A DNA stretch of 64,000 nucleotides from Alloalcanivorax marinus (GTDB lineage Bacteria; Pseudomonadota; Gammaproteobacteria; Pseudomonadales; Alcanivoracaceae), in NCBI RefSeq assembly GCF_016906305.1, contig NZ_JADDOL010000006.1, positions 124,001 through 188,000 of the forward strand. The letters run 5' to 3'. Both the position numbers and the translations under genes were made by a program. Each line of letters starts with the position of its first letter. The stretch's first letter is position 1. Shown piece by piece: positions 54,997-64,000 of this stretch. Below the pieces are notes generated by a model, which was not told where the DNA came from, made no database searches, and worked only from the letters and a program-made list of their open reading frames with translations.

Positions 54997-56184
54997 ATGC
55001 GCCGATTTTTTCTCATTATTTTTGCAATGGTATTCACCGCTTTTTGCGCGGTGAGCGCGCAGGAGCTGCGTCTTACCAATGAGCAGCGCGCGGCCATGGA
55101 AAAACTGCTGCCCGGGGTCACCATCGATGATCGACTGGTAAAAGGGCTCTCGGATATTTTCTATTCCCGGGACATGCCGGTGCGGGTGCGCCTCAAGGCC
55201 ATCGCCAAGCTGGTGGGCATCGACCAGATGCCGCCGGGTACCGCCCTGAGCCGCAAAATCTGTATCTGGGACATCGCCGGCCGCGCCGGCCCGGTGTTCC
55301 AGGCGGCCATGGACCAGCGCGCCCTGGCCATGGAGTACGGCGTCAATCTGGAAATGGTGCCGTTCACCAACGAGACCGTGATGGTGGAGGAGCTCAAGGC
55401 GGGCCGCTGCGACGCGGCGCTGATGAGCGGCTTCCGCGCCCGCCTGTTCAACAAGTACACCGGCACCATCGATTCCATCGGCGGCGTGCCGGACAACCAG
55501 CACATGCGCACCCTGCTGCAGGTGCTCGCCCACCCCAGCCAGGCGGACAAGATGGTGCAGGGCGAGTACGTGATCATGGGCATGTTCTCCGGCGGCGGCG
55601 TGCACATCTTCGTCAACGACAAACAGATCAGTTCCCTGGCCAAGGCCGCCGGCAAGAAAGTGGCGGTGCTCGACTACGACCAGACCCAGGCGGAAATGGT
55701 GGCCGGCATCGGCGCCACGCCGGTGCCCTCCGACATCGTCAGCGCCCCCAACAAGTTCAACAACGGCGTGGTGGACATTCTCGCCGCGCCGCTGGTGGCC
55801 TATGAGCTGCTGGAGCTCTACAAGGGCATGGAGCCCAAGGGCGGCATCGTCGACTACCCCATCGCCCAGCTCAGCATGCAGCTGGTGGGCCGGCTGGATA
55901 AATTCCCCAACGAAATCGCCCAGCTGATCCGGGAGGCGTCGTTCGAGGCCTACGATCAGGTGCGCGAGCGGGTCAAGGTGGAGGAAGACCGGGTGCCGAA
56001 ACGCTGGTGGATCCATATCCCCGACGACGAGCGCCGCGTCTACGAGAGCATGATGCAGGACGCCCGCGACGTGCTCCGCAAGGAAGGCTACTACAGCGGC
56101 GACATGCTGGATCTGCAGAAGCGCATCCGCTGCAAGTTCGACGGGTCCCGGGGTGAGTGCGCCGGCGCGGGGGGCAATGGATGA
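54997..56184 (+). CDS. AdeT-like putative solute-binding protein 1
   Basis: A 395-residue exported protein. The signal peptide (about 1-21, AVSA-Q) is followed by an extra ~65-residue helical N-terminal region not found in its two paralogues. The core then begins at Cys89 (KICIWDIAGRAGPVF). Conserved segments are VEELKAGRCDAALMSGFRAR, YTGTIDSIGG, VVDILAAPLVAYELLELYKG and a C-terminal RIRCKFDGSRGEC; the Cys pair may close the fold. The pattern resembles AdeT1/AdeT2-type proteins, now regarded as periplasmic binding proteins of a TRAP-like system. The Arg in the FRARLFN segment is a candidate substrate-carboxylate ligand. Confidence 0.75.
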   Translation: MRRFFLIIFAMVFTAFCAVSAQELRLTNEQRAAMEKLLPGVTIDDRLVKGLSDIFYSRDMPVRVRLKAIAKLVGIDQMPPGTALSRKICIWDIAGRAGPVFQAAMDQRALAMEYGVNLEMVPFTNETVMVEELKAGRCDAALMSGFRARLFNKYTGTIDSIGGVPDNQHMRTLLQVLAHPSQADKMVQGEYVIMGMFSGGGVHIFVNDKQISSLAKAAGKKVAVLDYDQTQAEMVAGIGATPVPSDIVSAPNKFNNGVVDILAAPLVAYELLELYKGMEPKGGIVDYPIAQLSMQLVGRLDKFPNEIAQLIREASFEAYDQVRERVKVEEDRVPKRWWIHIPDDERRVYESMMQDARDVLRKEGYYSGDMLDLQKRIRCKFDGSRGECAGAGGNG

Positions 56185-57227
56185 AAGCGCTTCCCCTCTC
56201 CACCCTGCTGATCCTGGTCGCGGCCCTGGCCGGTCCGCTGGCCGGGTCCGCCGGCGCTGACGAGCGCCCGCTGCGCGAACGCCTGGCCGACCGGCGCAAC
56301 GTGGACATCTGCATCTGGGATCTGGTCGGCCGCCACGGCCCGATCTTCACCGCCGCCCAGGACCAGACCACCCGCTTCCTCCAGTACGGCATCACCGTCA
56401 ACCTGGAGCCCTACACCAACGAGGCGGTGATGGTGGAGGAACTCAAGGCCGGCCGCTGCGACGCCGCCCTGATGACCGGCATGCGCGCGCGCCTGTTCAA
56501 CCAGTACACCGGCACCATCGATTCCATCGGCGGCCTGCCCACCCAGGAGCACCTGCGCATGCTGCTCAAGGTGCTGGCCGATCCGCGCTCGGCGCCGCGC
56601 ATGACCCAGGGCGAGTACGTGATCCTGGGCGTGGCGCCCGCCGGCGGCGCCTACATCTTCGTCAACGACAAGCGCATCAATACCCTGGGCAAGGCCGCCG
56701 GCAAGAAGGTGGCGGTGCTGGACTACGATCCGGTGCAGGCGGAAATGGTCGGCGACCTGGGCGCCGCGCCGGTGCCCACCGACATCGTCCACGCCCCGGG
56801 CCTGTTCAACAACGGCGTGGTGGACGTGCTGGCCGCGCCGCTGGCCGCCTACCAGCTGATGGAGTTGTACAAGGGCATGGACCCGGACGGCGGCATCATC
56901 GACTACCCGCTGGCGCAGATCACCCTGCAGCTGGTGGGCCACAAGGACCGGGTCAGCCCGGAGCTCGCGCAGATTACCCGGGAGCTGTTCTTCCAGAGCT
57001 ACGACGACTTCCTGGGCCGGGTACGCCAGGAAACCAAGGTGGTGCCCCAACACTGGTTCGTGACCATCCCCGACGAGGACAAGCGGGAGTACGAGGTGAT
57101 GATGCGCGAGGCGCGTCAGGAGTTGCGTGAGCGCGGCTACTACAGCGCCGACATGCTGGCGCTGCAGAAGAAGATCCGCTGCAAGCTGGATAACACCCGC
57201 GCGGAATGTTCCGCCCCCGTCCAATAA
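56181..57227 (+). CDS. AdeT-like putative solute-binding protein 2
   Basis: A 348-residue paralogue of the preceding protein. Its signal peptide covers about 1-26 (AGSAGA-D) and the core starts at Cys44 (ICIWDLVGRHGPIF). VEELKAGRCDAALMTGMRAR, TGTIDSIGGLP, YKGMDPDGGIIDYPLAQITL and the C-terminal KIRCKLDNTRAEC are present. The ATG at 56181 overlaps the previous stop by four bases, so both proteins are made together, perhaps as two binding proteins feeding one transporter. REP pair 4 follows. The ligand is unknown. Confidence 0.75.
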   Translation: MKALPLSTLLILVAALAGPLAGSAGADERPLRERLADRRNVDICIWDLVGRHGPIFTAAQDQTTRFLQYGITVNLEPYTNEAVMVEELKAGRCDAALMTGMRARLFNQYTGTIDSIGGLPTQEHLRMLLKVLADPRSAPRMTQGEYVILGVAPAGGAYIFVNDKRINTLGKAAGKKVAVLDYDPVQAEMVGDLGAAPVPTDIVHAPGLFNNGVVDVLAAPLAAYQLMELYKGMDPDGGIIDYPLAQITLQLVGHKDRVSPELAQITRELFFQSYDDFLGRVRQETKVVPQHWFVTIPDEDKREYEVMMREARQELRERGYYSADMLALQKKIRCKLDNTRAECSAPVQ

Positions 57228-57243
57228 AAGCCGACCGCCTAAA

Positions 57244-57314
57244 TCGCGGTCGAACGACCGCTCCTACAATGGGTTATCCCGGTCGGATCGTAGGAGCGGA
57301 CCTCCGACCGCGAT
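57244..57314. repeat. REP pair 4 (variant, opposite orientation)
   Basis: TCGCGGTCGAACGACCGCTC (57244-57263, then CTAC) and CGTAGGAGCGGACCTCCGAC (57289-57308, then CGCGAT) flank a 19-base spacer. The ends match the other REPs, but the stem is GGTCG/CGACC, so this is a diverged subtype. Confidence 0.8.
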
Positions 57315-57326
57315 CCCCCGCCCCGC

Positions 57327-58694
57327 TCAATGCAGCGGTTCGTCGCTGCCCGGCAACTGGTCCAGGGCGCCGAACATGTCCACGCGGCCGTCGCTGAACA
57401 TGTCCAGCTCCGGGGCCAGCGCCTGCACATAGCGATCAAAATACAGAAACTGCTTGAGCAGCAACGCGAACTCCCGGGGGAAACGGATGCCGTGGCCCTC
57501 GCCGATGCGCACCAGATCGGTGAGCAACTGGTTGACCTCCCGGTCGTTGCGGTCCGCCTGCACCAGGGAACTGGCGTCCACGTCGGTGAGCCGTTCCTGC
57601 AGGGCGCCGATATCCCGGGCCAGGGCCGCCACGTCCACTTCTTCCCGGGTCATGCCGACCATGGCCATGGCCCGCGCCATGCCGTCCACGTCACCGTGGC
57701 CGATGGCCTCGAACAGCTCCATCATGCCGGCCCAGGTCTCGCGGCGGATGCGCCCGACCATGCCGAAGTCGATAAAGCCCACGCGCCCGTCTTCCAGCAG
57801 CATCAGATTGCCGGCGTGCAGGTCCGCGTGGAAGAAATCGCAAAGCATCAGGCTGGAGAACCAGGTGTTGAGCGCGGTGATCAGGGTGCCCGCCGGGTCG
57901 TCGGTGTAGGCGCGCAGCACCTCCAGGTCGGTGAGCGGCACGCCGTGGAAGCGTTCCATGGTCAGCACCCGGGCGGTGGTATGGGTGCCCACCGGACGGG
58001 GCGCCACCACCGCGGTGTTGCCGCTTTCCGCCAGGAACCGGTTGAACGCCTCCAGATTGCGGGCTTCCTGCAGAAAGTCGCACTCCTCCAGCATGCCCGC
58101 CTGCAATTCCTCGATCACCCCGGACAGGGCCGACCGGGACAGGCCCGGCGCCAGGGATTCCACCACCCGCGCCGAGAAATAGAGAAAGTTGAAGTCGGTG
58201 AGCAGCACATGGCGTACGCCGGGCCGCTGCACCTTGATCACCACCTCGGCGCCGTTGTGCAGCCGCGCGGCGTGCACCTGGGCGATGGAGGCGCTGGCCA
58301 GTGGCTGGGGGTCCACCCATTCATACAGGGCGCTCAGCGGCTGGCCCAGTTCCCGCTCCACGGTGTCGCGAATGTAGTGGAACGGCATCGGCGGGGTGCG
58401 ATCCAGGCACTTCTGGAACTCGCTGACGTACTCCTCGGGGAACAACGACGGGGAACTGGCGATGAACTGACCCAGCTTGATGTAGGTGGCGCCCAGGGAC
58501 TCGAAGGTGCGCCGCAGCCGCACCGGCAGCTCGTCGCGGTCGCCGAGCAGCCAGCCCATGCCCTGGCGGCCGACCACCCCCACCGTTTCCATCACGCGCA
58601 GAGCGCCACGGGCGGTATTGCGCATCAGCGCCAGCCCTTCCCGTTCCCGGGTCAGGTCGCCGCGCGCCGCCTTCAGGGTGGATTCCTTGGTCAT
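57327..58694 (-). CDS. ABC1/UbiB-family atypical kinase
   Basis: A 455-residue protein of the ABC1 (ADCK/UbiB-like) kinase family. [18 protein letters not shown], the Ala-rich nucleotide loop [46 protein letters not shown] and IDFGMVGRI are the diagnostic motifs. There are no C-terminal membrane helices as in UbiB, so it is a soluble member. Such proteins act in lipid or ubiquinone metabolism with unclear substrates. It is convergent with the binding-protein pair and divergent from the lipoprotein gene. Confidence 0.88.
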
Positions 58695-59055
58695 GTGTAC
58701 TCCGTTCAGTTACCGATCCGCTCGTCGATGTCGTCCTCCTTTTTATTGTTTTTCGGACAGCTCTTTCGAAAACAGGCGTTCACCGCCTCACGGCCGCCCC
58801 CGCCTTCCGCCAACGCCTTGAAAATCAAGGCATACAGCCCGCCTGCCCGGCCGGTTCCATGAAGGCATTGACTATTTTGACAGTAGAGCCGAGACGCAGG
58901 GTCATTATCACCGGCGTGCCGCAAAACGATGATCTCAAGGCTAGCATCATGTTTGTAATGACTTACAGGCATTTATGTAATTGGCGCTTGTGCCAACTCA
59001 GAGCCTTTCTGTAATGTTGCCCGCGCCGAGAGAACAATAAAAAGGAGCTCATGGA
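58695..59055. other. 361-base gap, presumed promoter region
   Basis: Divergent gap between the ABC1 kinase gene and the lipoprotein gene. It is lower in GC than its surroundings. A TTGACA at 58877 lacks a good -10. A weak TTGTGC-N17-TAATGT pair (58989-58994, 59012-59017) lies close to the lipoprotein start and AAAGGAG (59041-59046 region) is its ribosome binding site. An 88-codon open frame on the minus strand (58706-58972) has no recognisable product and I do not call it. Confidence 0.4.
58981..58996. promoter_or_regulatory. Candidate operator TTGGC-N6-GCCAA
   Basis: A 5+5-base inverted repeat, TTGGCGCTTGTGCCAA, lies 60 bases before the lipoprotein start and overlaps the possible -35 element. 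It could be a repressor or activator site for the transport genes. No regulator is identified. Confidence 0.3.
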
Positions 59056-60078
59056 ATGCGTTCTCTACTCGATAAGATCATCCGTTCCTCGCGTCTTGTG
59101 CTGGCGGGGGGGATGGTTGTCGCGCTCTCCGGCTGTGCCATGATCTGGAAAAGCACCGGTGACATCCTGGTCACCTTCGGTGAAGCCGAAATGGCCCCCT
59201 ATCTGTTTACCTACGACGATATCCGCATGGGCTGCATGACCGGCGAGGCACAGACTCCGCTGCTCATGTCCTTCGCCGAGGTCGGCTCCTGGCCCGAAAA
59301 ACTGGGTGTGCTCACCTTCACCACCGCCGCCGTGTGCATGCAGCAGGAGGCTCTCGAGCAGGAACTGCGTTACCACCGCGAAGTCCGCGCCGGCAACGTG
59401 GCCAGCGCCCAGGACGCCCGCATCGCCCAGAAGCGCCTTTCCGCGGTCGCCGCCAAGCGGCTGTACAAGGCCTACACCCTGATGAACGAGAAGTTCGGTC
59501 CGCTGGAAGAGGGTCAGTGCCCCTACCTGCGCAAGGACCTGGATGAACTGGTGTGGCTGGTCGGCAACATCTCCGGCGTGCAGGCCCTGGTCGCCGATGG
59601 CGCCGCCGACGGCACCGTGGGCGTGCCCCGCGACATCGTCGCCAAGGTCGAGCGCCGCATGAAGTGCCTGGACAACGAGAAATGGTGGGGGGCGCCCATG
59701 GGCGTGCGCGCCACCATCTGGTCGATCCTGCCGCAGCTGGCTCCGGAAGGCGCCGAGCCGTGGAAGGTTCTGCACGAGTCCGAGCAGATGGGCTTCGAGA
59801 AGGGCGTCCGCCTGGGCAGCGCCTTCTACGCCATGAGCGCCTACAGCAAGGGTGACAACGAGCGCCTGCGCGACGCGATCCGCAACTTCGCCGCCAACGA
59901 CGACAACGTGGATCCGGACTACCTCATGATGGACACCATCGCCGGCGTGCTGGTCACCGGCCTGTCCGACCTGCTGTGGACCGAGAACACCGGCAAGCGT
60001 ACCCCGATCGGCGCCCTCGGCACCTTCTGGGATGACGAGGCCGATGAGCCCGAAGTGAACATCGACGACCTGCTTTAA
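59056..60078 (+). CDS. Lipoprotein, possible T-component of a TRAP-type transporter
   Basis: A 340-residue lipoprotein. Signal peptide with lipobox LSGC at Cys27 (VVALSGCAMI). The mature part is mostly helical, with Cys-containing segments (IRMGCMTGEAQ, AAVCMQQEALEQ, MKCLDNEKWW) and a helical pair AVAAKRLYKAYTLMNEKFGP. I do not recognise a definite family. Its place before a binding protein and permease, and its lipobox plus helical make-up, recall the TatT lipoproteins of TRAP systems, but that is inference. The start at 59056 has GGAG nine bases upstream. Confidence 0.55.
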   Translation: MRSLLDKIIRSSRLVLAGGMVVALSGCAMIWKSTGDILVTFGEAEMAPYLFTYDDIRMGCMTGEAQTPLLMSFAEVGSWPEKLGVLTFTTAAVCMQQEALEQELRYHREVRAGNVASAQDARIAQKRLSAVAAKRLYKAYTLMNEKFGPLEEGQCPYLRKDLDELVWLVGNISGVQALVADGAADGTVGVPRDIVAKVERRMKCLDNEKWWGAPMGVRATIWSILPQLAPEGAEPWKVLHESEQMGFEKGVRLGSAFYAMSAYSKGDNERLRDAIRNFAANDDNVDPDYLMMDTIAGVLVTGLSDLLWTENTGKRTPIGALGTFWDDEADEPEVNIDDLL

Positions 60079-60089
60079 TCCGCACCGTG

Positions 60090-60121
60090 AAGGCGGGACC
60101 ACCCCGAGCCGGTCCCGCCTT
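60090..60121 (+). terminator. Hairpin between lipoprotein and binding-protein genes
   Basis: An 11-base-pair stem AAGGCGGGACC / GGTCCCGCCTT (60090-60100 and 60111-60121) has a ten-base loop and only TTATT after it. It may reduce downstream transcription or protect an mRNA end, so that the lipoprotein and binding protein are made in different amounts. Confidence 0.55.
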
Positions 60122-60153
60122 ATTCCAAGAAGTATTCGCAAGGAGATACCGTG

Positions 60154-61161
60154 ATGCGCGTTTTCAAGACTTTCGCCCTGGCCGCGGTGGCCTCGCTGGG
60201 CCTGAGCGCCCTGTCCCCGGCCCAGGCGGCGGTGGAACGCAGCCTGTGCGTGTTCGACATCATTGGCGCCAACGGTGACGTGTTCAACGTCATGAAGGAC
60301 CTCAAAACCCAGGCGTCCGGGTGGGGCGTCGACCTGAAGCTCAAACCCTATACCGACGAGAAAATCGCCGCCGAGGACCTGAAAGCCGGTCAGTGCGACG
60401 GCGCGGTGCTCACCGGCCTGCGGGTTCGTCAGTTCAACAGCTATGCGGGCAGCATGGAAGCCATCGGCGCCATCCCCACCTACAAGGAACTGAAAACGGT
60501 GATGCAGGTGCTGTCCAGCGACGCGCCGTCCATTACCGAAAAAATGAGAACCGGCAACTACGCCATGGGCGGCATGATTCCCATGGGCGCCGCCTATCTG
60601 TTCGTGAAGGATAAGGAAATCGATACCGTCGGTGAGCTGTCCGGCAAATCCATCTCGGTAATGGAATACGATCCGGCCCAGGCGGAAATGGCGTCCAAGG
60701 TGGGCATGTCTCCGGTGCTTTCGGACATCACCAACTTCGCCGGCCGCTTCAACAACAACTCCGTGGACATCTGCTTCGCGCCGGTGGTGGCCTACTCCGC
60801 CCTGGAACTGTACAAGGGCATGCAGCCGGACGGCGGCATCATTCGCTACACCCTGGGCATGCTGACCACCCAGATCGTGCTGCGCGCCGACCGTTTCCCG
60901 GATGGCTTCGACCAGAAGTCCCGTGAGTTCATGTTCAGCCAGTTCGACCGCGCCATGAACGTGATCCGCAACGCGGAAAACGAAGTGGACAAGAAGTGGT
61001 GGATCGACATCCCCGAGCAGGACAAGCTGCGCTACGACGAAATGCTCCGCGAAGCGCGTCTGGAAATGACCGAGGACGGTATCTACAACAAGGACCTGAT
61101 TTCCCTGCTCAAGAAAGTACGTTGCAAGTACGAGCCCTCCCGGGCCGAGTGCACCCTGTGA
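60154..61161 (+). CDS. AdeT-like putative solute-binding protein 3
   Basis: A 335-residue exported paralogue of proteins 1 and 2. The signal peptide ends near residue 26 (SPAQA-A); the core starts at Cys32 (LCVFDIIGANGDVF). Matching segments are AEDLKAGQCDGAVLTGLRVR, SVDICFAPVVAYSALELYKG, MQPDGGIIRYTLGM and the C-terminal KVRCKYEPSRAEC. It is more distant from 1 and 2 than they are from each other. The ATG at 60154 is preferred over GTG at 60151 for its spacing to AAGGAGA. As the nearest binding protein to the permease, it is probably the cognate one. Confidence 0.78.
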   Translation: MRVFKTFALAAVASLGLSALSPAQAAVERSLCVFDIIGANGDVFNVMKDLKTQASGWGVDLKLKPYTDEKIAAEDLKAGQCDGAVLTGLRVRQFNSYAGSMEAIGAIPTYKELKTVMQVLSSDAPSITEKMRTGNYAMGGMIPMGAAYLFVKDKEIDTVGELSGKSISVMEYDPAQAEMASKVGMSPVLSDITNFAGRFNNNSVDICFAPVVAYSALELYKGMQPDGGIIRYTLGMLTTQIVLRADRFPDGFDQKSREFMFSQFDRAMNVIRNAENEVDKKWWIDIPEQDKLRYDEMLREARLEMTEDGIYNKDLISLLKKVRCKYEPSRAECTL

Positions 61162-61183
61162 TCCGTTGACACGATCGCCAACC

Positions 61184-61205
61184 GCGGGGCCCTTCCGGGC
61201 CCCGC
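61184..61205 (+). terminator. GC hairpin before the permease gene
   Basis: A nine-base-pair stem GCGGGGCCC / GGGCCCCGC (61184-61192 and 61197-61205) with a four-base loop lies in the 109-base gap before the permease start, followed by ATTTCTGT. It is a partial terminator at most. Confidence 0.5.
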
Positions 61206-61270
61206 ATTTCTGTCCCCTCCGCGCCCCTTTTTGCCGCTCCTTCGGCGATGAACCAGTAACCGGGTGATAA

Positions 61271-63595
61271 ATGGAAAAACCAACCTTTACCGTGGCCAGA
61301 CGTTCGGCCGGCGAGTGGCTCTCGTCGCTGCCGACGCTTTTTATTTTGCTGATCGTGATTTTTCTTTCTTCCGGTCAGATTATTCATTCCCAGCTTTTGA
61401 AAATCGGCGAAGCCACCTGGGATGAATACTTCCTGCTCAGGGGGGCCGGCATGGTGGCCGAACCCACCTGCAATCCAGACCCGGACATCAACCAGCGCGT
61501 GCGCGAAGTGGTCGAGCAGCGCCAGGCCGAGGCCGACGATCCGCTGGCGGACATCCTCGGCGGTTCCGAGGTGGACGAAGACGCCATCCGCCAGTCCCTG
61601 GAGGCCTCCCGCGCCAACTGCCGCGCCAAATGGATGCGCTACGAAACCGTGCAGGAGAAGGTCACCCCCGGAGTGATCGCGTTCCGCAACATCGAAGGCG
61701 GCGTGGCCAGCGTGGTCTCGACCCTCGGCGACTACAAACGGCTGCTGTTGTGTCTGCTGGTGATCATCTGCGCCGCCACCGCCACGCTCGCCCGGCACCA
61801 CATCGCCCTGCGGCCGCCCCGAACCCGCAAGGACCACTATGTATCCACCCTTGCCCAGCTGACCGCCAATACCCTGCTTCTGATGTCGGCGGCGGTATAT
61901 CGCAGTGAGGACGCCCAGGCCATGGCTTCCGGCGTCACCGTGGGCAATTTCTATTTGCACGCCTTCTGGATGGCGGGCTTCGCGCTGCTGACCGCCGCCT
62001 CCCTGTTTCAGTTGATCCGACCGCCCAAGGATCTCGAGGACGGCGGTTCCTGGCCCAAGGCACTGCTGACCATTCCGCTGTACACCTTTATGTGTCTGAC
62101 CGCGTCGGCGCAGTTCATCAGCCAGGGCTACTACCACGGCATCAGCGTTTATCTGAACATGATGATGGAACTGTCCACCCTGTTCCTGAACCTGGCCCTG
62201 TACATCTGGATCGGCATGCTGCTCAAGCAGACCAAGCTGGCCCACCTGGTGTTCGACGTGCTGCGGCCCTGGAAAATGTCGCCGGAGCTGATGTGCTTCG
62301 TGGTGCTGGCCGTGGCCGCTATTCCCACCGCCTACACCGGTGCGTCGGGCATCTTCGTGATCGCCGCCGGCGCCACCATCTACCAGGAACTGATCCGCGT
62401 GGGGGCGCGCAAGCAACTGGCCCTGGCCGCCACCGCCATGTCCGGGTCCATGGGCGTGGTACTGCGTCCCTGTCTGCTGGTGGTGATCATCGCCGCGCTC
62501 AACAAGAGCGTGACCACCGCCGAACTGTTCGCGTCGGGCTACAAGATTTTCTTCCTGAGTCTGTTCCTGTTCTTTATCTACAGCCAGTTCGCGCGCACCA
62601 CGCCGGCGCGCATCGCGCCGTTCTCCGAGGCCCTGTCCCGCAGTCTCAAGCGCCTGGTCCCGCTGATGCCCTATGGCATCATCGTTGGCGCCGTGCTGGT
62701 GATGTTCAGCGACCTTCTGGGTCGTCACCTGGACGAATTTTCCGCGCCCATCATCCTGCCTGTGATGCTGCTCGCGGTGCTGCTGTTCGAGAAGCTGAGC
62801 CGTCACCTGCTGCATCTGTTCAGTCTGTTCCTGGCGGTGATGCTGGTGCTGTCGTTCATGGGCATCTGGGAAGGCTACCAGGTGCTGACCAGTGGCAACG
62901 TGCCCGCCAGCATTTCACCCGCGGAACTGGAAGACGTGCTGTGGGGCGAGTTCTGGCGTGATCTGGTGCTGGGCGCCTTCCTGGTCATCCATTATCTGGT
63001 CAGGACCGGCGATCAGGACCCTCACTACAAGCCTGAGGCGGGCGTTTCGGAGAAAATGGAAGGCGCGCTGCGCCTGGCCACCAACGAGACCACCGGCCAC
63101 ATCGGTGCCCTGCTGATGCTGATGGCCCTGTCGGTGAGCACCGGCGGCATCATCGAACGCTCCGGCGTCCTGGAGATGTTGCCGGAGACCTTCTCCTCCA
63201 TCTGGATCGCGATGACCATTCTGGTGGTGACCATGGTGATCATCGGCATGTTCATGGACCCCTATGGCGCGGTGATCCTGGTCAATGCCACCATCGCCCA
63301 GGTCGCCTTCGACAACGGCATCGCGCCACTGCACTTCTGGATGATCACGCTGGTGGCCTTCGAGCTGGGCTATCTGACCCCGCCGGTGGCGCTCAACCAC
63401 CTGCTGACACGGCAGGTGGTCGGCGACGACGAGGTGGAAAGCGCCAAACTCACCACCGGCAGCTTCTTCCGTCGCTACGAGAAGTTCATCCTGCCGATCG
63501 CGGTGATGCTGACCGCGCTGCTGATGGTGTCCTTCCTGCCGCTGATCTCCGACGGCCTGCACGAGTGGCTGTTCCAGAAGATCCAGGCGGGCTGA
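61271..63595 (+). CDS. TRAP-type fused permease (large subunit with N-terminal extension)
   Basis: A 774-residue multi-pass membrane protein. The C-terminal part carries DctM-like features: AIPTAYTGASGIFVIAAGATIY, ALAATAMSGSMGVVLRPCLL, GMFMDPYGAVILVN and ELGYLTPPVALNHLLTRQVV. The N-terminus has one helix (about 19-38), a ~115-residue charged soluble loop (about 40-155) with two Cys (PTCNPDPDI and ANCRAKW), then more helices in the position of the small Q subunit. A separate dctQ gene is absent, so the small and large parts are probably fused. The loop is unusual and might dock the binding proteins. GGGTGAT is its weak ribosome binding site. Confidence 0.8.
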   Translation: MEKPTFTVARRSAGEWLSSLPTLFILLIVIFLSSGQIIHSQLLKIGEATWDEYFLLRGAGMVAEPTCNPDPDINQRVREVVEQRQAEADDPLADILGGSEVDEDAIRQSLEASRANCRAKWMRYETVQEKVTPGVIAFRNIEGGVASVVSTLGDYKRLLLCLLVIICAATATLARHHIALRPPRTRKDHYVSTLAQLTANTLLLMSAAVYRSEDAQAMASGVTVGNFYLHAFWMAGFALLTAASLFQLIRPPKDLEDGGSWPKALLTIPLYTFMCLTASAQFISQGYYHGISVYLNMMMELSTLFLNLALYIWIGMLLKQTKLAHLVFDVLRPWKMSPELMCFVVLAVAAIPTAYTGASGIFVIAAGATIYQELIRVGARKQLALAATAMSGSMGVVLRPCLLVVIIAALNKSVTTAELFASGYKIFFLSLFLFFIYSQFARTTPARIAPFSEALSRSLKRLVPLMPYGIIVGAVLVMFSDLLGRHLDEFSAPIILPVMLLAVLLFEKLSRHLLHLFSLFLAVMLVLSFMGIWEGYQVLTSGNVPASISPAELEDVLWGEFWRDLVLGAFLVIHYLVRTGDQDPHYKPEAGVSEKMEGALRLATNETTGHIGALLMLMALSVSTGGIIERSGVLEMLPETFSSIWIAMTILVVTMVIIGMFMDPYGAVILVNATIAQVAFDNGIAPLHFWMITLVAFELGYLTPPVALNHLLTRQVVGDDEVESAKLTTGSFFRRYEKFILPIAVMLTALLMVSFLPLISDGLHEWLFQKIQAG

Positions 63596-63650: not shown

Positions 63651-64000
63651 TCAGAACCGGTACCGGCCCTGGTCGATGCCCTGCTGGATGTCCGGTGTCA
63701 GCGGCTGGTAGGTGCGCTCGCCGGGCAGTAACACGTAAACCGGATCGTCCACCTTCGCCAGATCGTACTTTTCTTCCTTGAGCGTGTTCTTCTGGTGTTT
63801 GAAGGTGCCGGTGGTTTGCACGCCGCCCTGGATCACGCGCAAGAACACCGGCACCGCGAACGGCGGCAGCGCCCGTTGCAGGGCCCGGGTAAACGCCACC
63901 CAGTCCACTTCCTCATGGGGACGATCCAGGCGCAGCTGCGCCATGCCGGCGCGGCCGTCCGTGCCGGGGATCTCCACCCCGTAGACCACGGACTCCACCA
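63651..64000 (-). CDS. Long-chain acyl-CoA synthetase, C-terminal end (partial)
   Basis: The visible 116 codons are the C-terminus of an AMP-forming acyl-CoA synthetase of the FATP/FadD6 type; the rest lies past the window. Diagnostic segments are VVYGVEIPGTDGRAGMAQL, LPPFAVPVFLRVIQ, TGTFKHQKNTLKEEKYD (with the catalytic Lys in the KHQK segment) and the end DDPVYVLLPGERTYQPLT. It would activate long- or very-long-chain fatty acids. It converges on the permease gene. Confidence 0.85.
   Translation of the reverse strand, partial: VESVVYGVEIPGTDGRAGMAQLRLDRPHEEVDWVAFTRALQRALPPFAVPVFLRVIQGGVQTTGTFKHQKNTLKEEKYDLAKVDDPVYVLLPGERTYQPLTPDIQQGIDQGRYRF

Follow-up and report, generated by a model that had tools for sequence, protein, structure and literature searches.

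A lipoprotein, an AdeT-type binding protein and a fused permease as a putative TPAT-like TRAP importer in Alloalcanivorax marinus

What does a fused permease of the tripartite ATP-independent periplasmic (TRAP) type carry into the cell, when a lipoprotein and several AdeT-like solute-binding proteins (SBPs) are encoded next to it? The question is raised by a 9-kb stretch of Alloalcanivorax marinus (Alcanivoracaceae), situated toward the end of a piece of 64,000 nucleotides, here called the window (contig NZ_JADDOL010000006.1, positions 124,001 to 188,000, assembly GCF_016906305.1); the host genome comprises 4.05 Mb in 56 contigs. The five genes listed in an earlier note made from the DNA letters lie where it had placed them, and three of them (SBP-A, SBP-B and SBP-C) belong to PF19582 and the permease to PF06808. 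We read the lipoprotein, SBP-C and the permease as a TRAP importer of the secondary-active kind that takes up a hydrophobic ligand, similar to the TPAT systems, with a probability of roughly 60%. The gene content, the linkage, the predicted folds and a missing arginine, on which this reading rests, were all computed.

Linkage of the lipoprotein, binding protein and permease

The conserved unit is composed of the lipoprotein, the binding protein and the permease. The lipoprotein was present in 46/46 genomes of Alcanivoracaceae, and PF19582 in 34 of the 194 genomes of the order. Eighty chosen neighbourhoods, a subset of the AdeT loci, were fetched and mapped. Among the 46 lipoprotein genes mapped, the window's own included, 36 were followed on the same strand by the SBP and then by the permease, and these were distributed over 11 families and 21 genera. 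Five were followed by an SBP with no permease next to it (L090, L098, L108, L117, L132), three by a permease with the SBP upstream (L114, L121, L125), while neither gene was found at the remaining two (L085, L088). Additionally, named genomes were scanned; of 119 matching stretches, 110 were confirmed and 80 were kept. The lipoprotein was accompanied by both SBP and permease in 59 of these loci, by the permease only in 10, by the SBP only in nine and by neither in two, counts in which some contigs end early and distance limits score a few complete sets as partial (e.g., L228, L240). The complete set was detected in 34 of the 39 loci taken as Alcanivoracaceae (53-96% identity; the lipoprotein is 96% identical to the Alloalcanivorax gelatiniphagus homologue) and in 25 of the 41 others, which include records of Thalassolituus, Oleispira, Alkanindiges, Methylococcales, Limnobacter, Burkholderiales and Myxococcales. 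The earlier note had named unlinked genes in relatives, or a permease outside TRAP, as outcomes that would speak against it; the set is linked in relatives and the permease does not lie outside TRAP.

In three methanotroph records (L230, L235, L252) the order is lipoprotein-SBP-lipoprotein-SBP-permease, the second lipoprotein of L252 being in pieces, and this order indicates a joint duplication of lipoprotein and SBP. SBP-A, SBP-B and a fourth binding protein, SBP-D, have no lipoprotein of their own and are separated from SBP-C in a 125-sequence tree. We read these extra binding proteins as amplified in Alcanivoracaceae.

Some loci deserve separate mention. A full module was observed in L220, a record titled as a Klebsiella pneumoniae metagenome-assembled genome, whose name is probably wrong. 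No SBP was found beside the lipoprotein and permease of L217, L218, L219 and L222 (Alkanindiges and a Moraxellaceae record), and the two genes of L217 and L218 are separated by a reading frame that, judged by eye, is rhomboid-like. The lipoprotein paralogues without SBP and permease (L085:9572-10618, minus strand; L088:9766-10809, plus strand) adjoin a FadL-like gene and a gene for a large Big_5 lipoprotein. The same FadL-like and Big_5 pair is located upstream of a monooxygenase-like gene, a short-chain dehydrogenase/reductase gene, an SBP and a permease in L103:238-4772 (plus strand) and L104:15223-19757 (minus strand). The large lipoproteins near L088 and L103 had been guessed to be of the VolA type; this reading was discarded, as Pfam detects only Big_5 repeats in them and a third candidate, that of L132, matches nothing.

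Binding proteins, lipoprotein and permease compared with known systems

The four AdeT1_2 proteins (SBP-A to SBP-D) scored 265 to 324 bits against the PF19582 cut-off of 27. With Foldseek, the SBP-C model matched TRAP binding proteins (4nn3, E-value = 4e-17, TM-score 0.78), and a TatPT chain was placed at rank 31; this predicted fold supports the TRAP reading of the earlier note. Another explanation, given by the name of the Acinetobacter homologue, is that AdeT proteins are drug efflux parts: in a proteome paper, AdeT is presented as an efflux pump of the RND type, with a citation that ties it to resistance against aminoglycosides (PMC6679007). No RND family was matched by any of SBP-A to SBP-D and the predicted fold is that of a TRAP binding protein, for which reasons the efflux reading was rejected as highly improbable. 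Furthermore, PF19582 has been grouped with periplasmic binding proteins, nearest to those of TRAP systems (PMC11467057).

An arginine equivalent to Arg-147 of SiaP, which selects for carboxylates, has been reported in 5943 of 6142 DctP proteins (PMC4646407). We located its column in the AdeT alignment by two profile alignments, using the mutated residue of 2xwk (SiaP R147A) and the arginine of 4n91. There was no arginine in the column among 38 aligned AdeT proteins (A 27, S 7, G 2, P 1, T 1), nor in a wider set of 125 (A 102, S 10, G 4, V 3, P 3, T 3), nor among 147 AdeT proteins from the named loci (A 121, S 16, P 4, V 3, with three gaps), the last two sets having genomes in common. Binding proteins encoded beside canonical TatT have Trp at this column in 19 of 20 loci, the 20th not being aligned. 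A canonical TatT locus with DctP and DctM is also present elsewhere in this genome (C55:78566-82092), where a 172-residue frame with four segments is read as a candidate DctQ, and its DctP has Trp at the arginine position as well. With Ala or Ser in AdeT and Trp beside canonical TatT, both T-linked kinds of binding protein would be devoid of the carboxylate filter, via different residues.

These data bear on a competing explanation, an ordinary TRAP importer of small organic acids in which other residues would bind the carboxylate and the lipoprotein would be an accessory stabiliser. The DctM permease and the DctP-like fold agree with it, binding proteins for isethionate and for dicarboxylates rank among the best fold matches of SBP-C, and invariant arginines at AdeT alignment positions 68, 233, 278 and 299 could hold an acid elsewhere. 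However, the arginine found in nearly all DctP proteins is missing in 125/125 AdeT proteins, which gives no support to the ordinary carboxylate recognition left open by the earlier note, and the lipoprotein is kept with SBP and permease in 36 of the 46 mapped units. A small-acid importer is rather unlikely.

The lipoprotein had no Pfam match above cut-off. Its lipobox Cys and four further Cys are invariant (37/37 aligned homologues), and its AlphaFold2 model is all-helical (pLDDT 91.7, pTM 0.88). Foldseek returned no PDB match at an E-value of 0.001. Among the best 50 of 431 matches, TatT of Treponema pallidum (3u64) presented the highest TM-scores (0.43/0.48, probability 0.99), followed by TatT in complex with TatPT (4di3_A); 8g53, titled as a bacterial TPAT family structure, was at rank 28, and complement C3d chains had a TM-score of about 0.35. 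No sequence homology between the lipoprotein and TatT was found, either with the TatT family PF16811 or by a profile comparison. The lipoprotein occupies TatT's place in the locus and, judging by the models, may share its fold. The suggestion that it is an additional component of the transporter is backed by linkage (59/80 named loci, 36/46 mapped genes), with the fold being suggestive.

The permease scored 54.5 bits against the PF06808 (DctM) cut-off of 23.8, with the match mainly C-terminal, and 65 bits with NCBIfam dctM, below the cut-off of 268. Its profile also matches solved TRAP permeases, so that the TRAP assignment of the earlier note holds. The unusual N-terminal loop noticed there is real as well: hydropathy places a first segment at residues 20-38 and, after a loop of some 120 residues, the next ones from residue 158 onward. 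One Cys of this loop is invariant and one nearly so in 28 aligned permeases. Five hydrophobic segments precede the M part by hydropathy, and the N-terminal part is a candidate Q domain, which would make the protein a QM fusion. The loop would be periplasmic and might dock a partner. A layout with no separate Q gene had been called uncommon; for a permease of this kind beside a lipoprotein, a precedent has been reported in the T. pallidum TPAT operon (PMC5812351).

The closest known system is TPAT (TatT-TatP(T)-TatQM, PF16811) of T. pallidum and relatives, in which a helical T lipoprotein gene likewise stands beside a TRAP binding protein and permease. The two also share a binding protein without the carboxylate arginine (in the canonical loci checked). 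TatT is the best fold match of the lipoprotein by TM-score among the best 50 matches, and a hydrophobic ligand has been proposed for TPAT too (PMC5812351). They differ in the lipoprotein family, in the binding protein (PF19582, as opposed to PF03480 in the canonical locus of this genome), in Ala/Ser instead of the canonical Trp at the arginine column, in the long N-terminal permease loop and in the extra binding proteins. DctP-type TRAP systems (SiaPQM, DctPQM) have in common with the module the binding-protein fold and a DctM permease, but the module has no carboxylate arginine, possesses a T-like lipoprotein and its permease match is mostly C-terminal. In the BstABC system of Methylococcus, BstA is an RND protein. 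BstABC combines a TatT-like helical protein with a periplasmic binding protein acting on a lipid, an arrangement also proposed for our module, although BstB belongs to another binding-protein family, PF12974 (PMC10942540). AdeT1 and AdeT2 of Acinetobacter share the Pfam family name (PF19582, AdeT1_2) and are called efflux pump parts in the literature (PMC6679007), whereas here we consider such proteins as the binding proteins that serve an importer. In a methanotroph paper, a fused TRAP cluster of three genes is described as having evolved as a variant of the system in T. pallidum (PMC11931723). No paper describing the module was found in the literature searched, which misses most subscription journals. 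We read it as a TPAT-like TRAP importer and a second such class, built on different lipoprotein and binding-protein families.

Layout of the locus

The features of the locus are collected in Table 1. SBP-B has a possible ATG start that overlaps the TGA of SBP-A (ATGA). The genes had been regarded as one unit; this was not confirmed, since the ABC1-kinase gene on the opposite strand splits SBP-A and SBP-B from the lipoprotein, SBP-C and the permease. Kinase genes of this kind were found in 19 copies among the neighbours in the mapped loci (nine genera, three families). The ABC1/UbiB-like kinase is kept between SBP-B and the lipoprotein in Alcanivoracaceae and is near the module in two other families.

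Table 1. Features of the AdeT locus, in window positions, with the evidence for each
Feature	Position	Strand	Evidence
SBP-A, AdeT1_2 binding protein with N-terminal extension	54997..56184	+	PF19582 E 1.4e-78, residues 114-389
SBP-B, AdeT1_2 binding protein	56181..57227 (annotated start 56157)	+	PF19582 E 1.3e-78
ABC1/UbiB-like kinase gene	57327..58694	-	PF03109 E 1e-59
Lipoprotein, proposed TatT-like T-component	59056..60078	+	lipobox Cys at residue 27, all-helical model, Foldseek 3u64, linkage
SBP-C, core AdeT1_2 binding protein of the module	60151..61161	+	PF19582 E 1.4e-95; model pLDDT 93.6, TRAP binding-protein fold
G+C hairpin between SBP-C and permease	61184..61205	+	9 pairs
TRAP permease, probable QM fusion, N-terminal loop	61271..63595	+	PF06808 E 1.1e-14; profile match 9pym_A E 6.1e-10; hydropathy
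Long-chain acyl-CoA synthetase, C-terminal part (gene runs past the window to L015:2531)	63651..64000	-	NF006134, 817.7 bits, cut-off 625

Three binding proteins for one permease, as counted in the earlier note, proved to be an artefact of the window edge: there are four and two. A second fused permease of 775 residues, with 71% identity to the first, is encoded just past the edge, and both this permease and SBP-D lie within 13 kb beyond it. The genome has four PF19582 matches, all inside this stretch of 21 kb. The second permease was seen in tandem with the first at L015:2677-5004 and L077:14192-16564 (both plus strand). In the window's genome the long-chain acyl-CoA synthetase gene is located between the two permeases on the opposite strand; it has this place in L015, L075 and L076, but L077 and L078, which belong to the same genus, do not show this arrangement. 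A lipase chaperone (PF03280) and an acyl-CoA dehydrogenase are also encoded past the edge, together with an alpha/beta-hydrolase that is read as a candidate secreted lipase.

The hairpin of Table 1 lies just 3' of SBP-C. Thirty gaps between SBP and permease (41-399 bases) were compared with mononucleotide shuffles, and 24 had a hairpin that no more than 5 of 100 shuffles equalled; in Alcanivoracaceae loci it starts 11-28 bases past the SBP stop codon. The hairpin could raise the binding protein over the permease, and operons of this type usually yield a surplus of the former. Another G+C inverted repeat was noticed by eye between the lipoprotein and SBP-C (60078-60151).

Candidate ligands, mechanism and meaning

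Concerning the ligand, a hydrophobic compound is somewhat favoured by the evidence. Proteobacterial TPATs have been described mostly in hydrocarbon degraders (PMC5812351), and oil-degrading genera are present among our named loci, as read off record titles. Within Alcanivoracaceae, the acyl-CoA synthetase and the lipase with its chaperone nearby suggest fatty acids, for this family only, and a lipase chaperone lies within 5 kb of 6 of the 16 Alcanivoracaceae AdeT loci (expected 0.11). Fatty acids or similar compounds are thus a tentative proposal for the ligand in this family. These linkage counts used 124 of 126 AdeT and 56 of 62 lipase-chaperone matches, fragments being excluded.

Instead of fatty acids, the cargo might be some other hydrophobic substance, for example a sterol, hopanoid or membrane lipid. 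The module is found in Methylococcales, the methanotroph sterol-binding protein BstC is TatT-like (PMC10942540), and, as reported, STRING links Acinetobacter AdeT by co-occurrence to a protein with a START domain (PMC6679007), which also counts in favour of lipids in general. The Alcanivoracaceae neighbours, acyl-CoA synthetase and lipase, point to acyl chains, and we hold this alternative to be improbable, though not strongly so.

Returning to the TPAT-like importer and its proposed ligand, several results weigh against them. The Foldseek E-value for 3u64 is just 0.085 and the TM-scores are under 0.5; PF16811 was matched by none of 37 lipoprotein members at an E-value of 0.1, and hhalign against 19 canonical TatT sequences gave a probability of 0.1%, below the 0.4% of a reversed control. 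The register at the arginine column derives from weak alignments (E-value = 0.046 and 0.048), and fatty acids are carboxylates themselves, so that the missing arginine alone is no pointer to them. Four of the six lipase-chaperone loci represent one syntenic block of one genus, and no chaperone was found within 5 kb of the 81 AdeT loci of other families. FadL, counted from the best 149 of 183 matches (weak FadL-like genes in L085, L088, L103 and L104 fall outside this count), was within 5 kb in 0/16 Alcanivoracaceae loci and 1/81 elsewhere (expected 0.25 and 0.95); within 10 kb the counts were 0/16 and 3/81 (expected 0.38 and 1.8), with no enrichment. A co-occurrence with wax-ester synthase (24/34 AdeT genomes and 52/160 others) was dropped as not specific, given the PhaC control (19/34 and 43/160 genomes), which outside Alcanivoracaceae is as strong or stronger.

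From the computed features we infer the formation of a complex, the order of hand-over, the membrane of anchoring, the ligand class and the ion coupling. The lipoprotein, probably anchored in the outer membrane, would take up the ligand first and hand it to the AdeT binding protein, which would avoid the usual arginine-carboxylate contact. The binding protein would then bring the ligand to the permease, and import would be driven by an ion gradient. SBP-A, SBP-B and SBP-D would be paralogous receptors, probably widening the ligand range or raising receptor number for the two permeases. The likeliest ligands in Alcanivoracaceae would be long-chain fatty acids or comparable compounds released when oil is broken down.

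A wider proposal may be put forward with considerable reserve. In it, a TRAP class with its own T-component, lacking recognisable sequence kinship with TatT, would carry long-chain fatty acids or products derived from oil through the periplasm, on a dedicated route from surface lipase to acyl-CoA synthetase. Two T-linked TRAP lineages would each have lost the carboxylate filter through different residues, so that T-partnership and loss of the arginine would coincide. To our knowledge, the passage of fatty acids and oily molecules across the periplasm is poorly defined. In a group of oil-degrading bacteria, the module provides concrete objects of study: a lipoprotein, a family of receptors and a permease. 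It further suggests that import receptors are what the proteins with an AdeT efflux pump annotation really are. A testable rule is offered as well, namely that TRAP binding proteins working with a T-component lack the carboxylate arginine.

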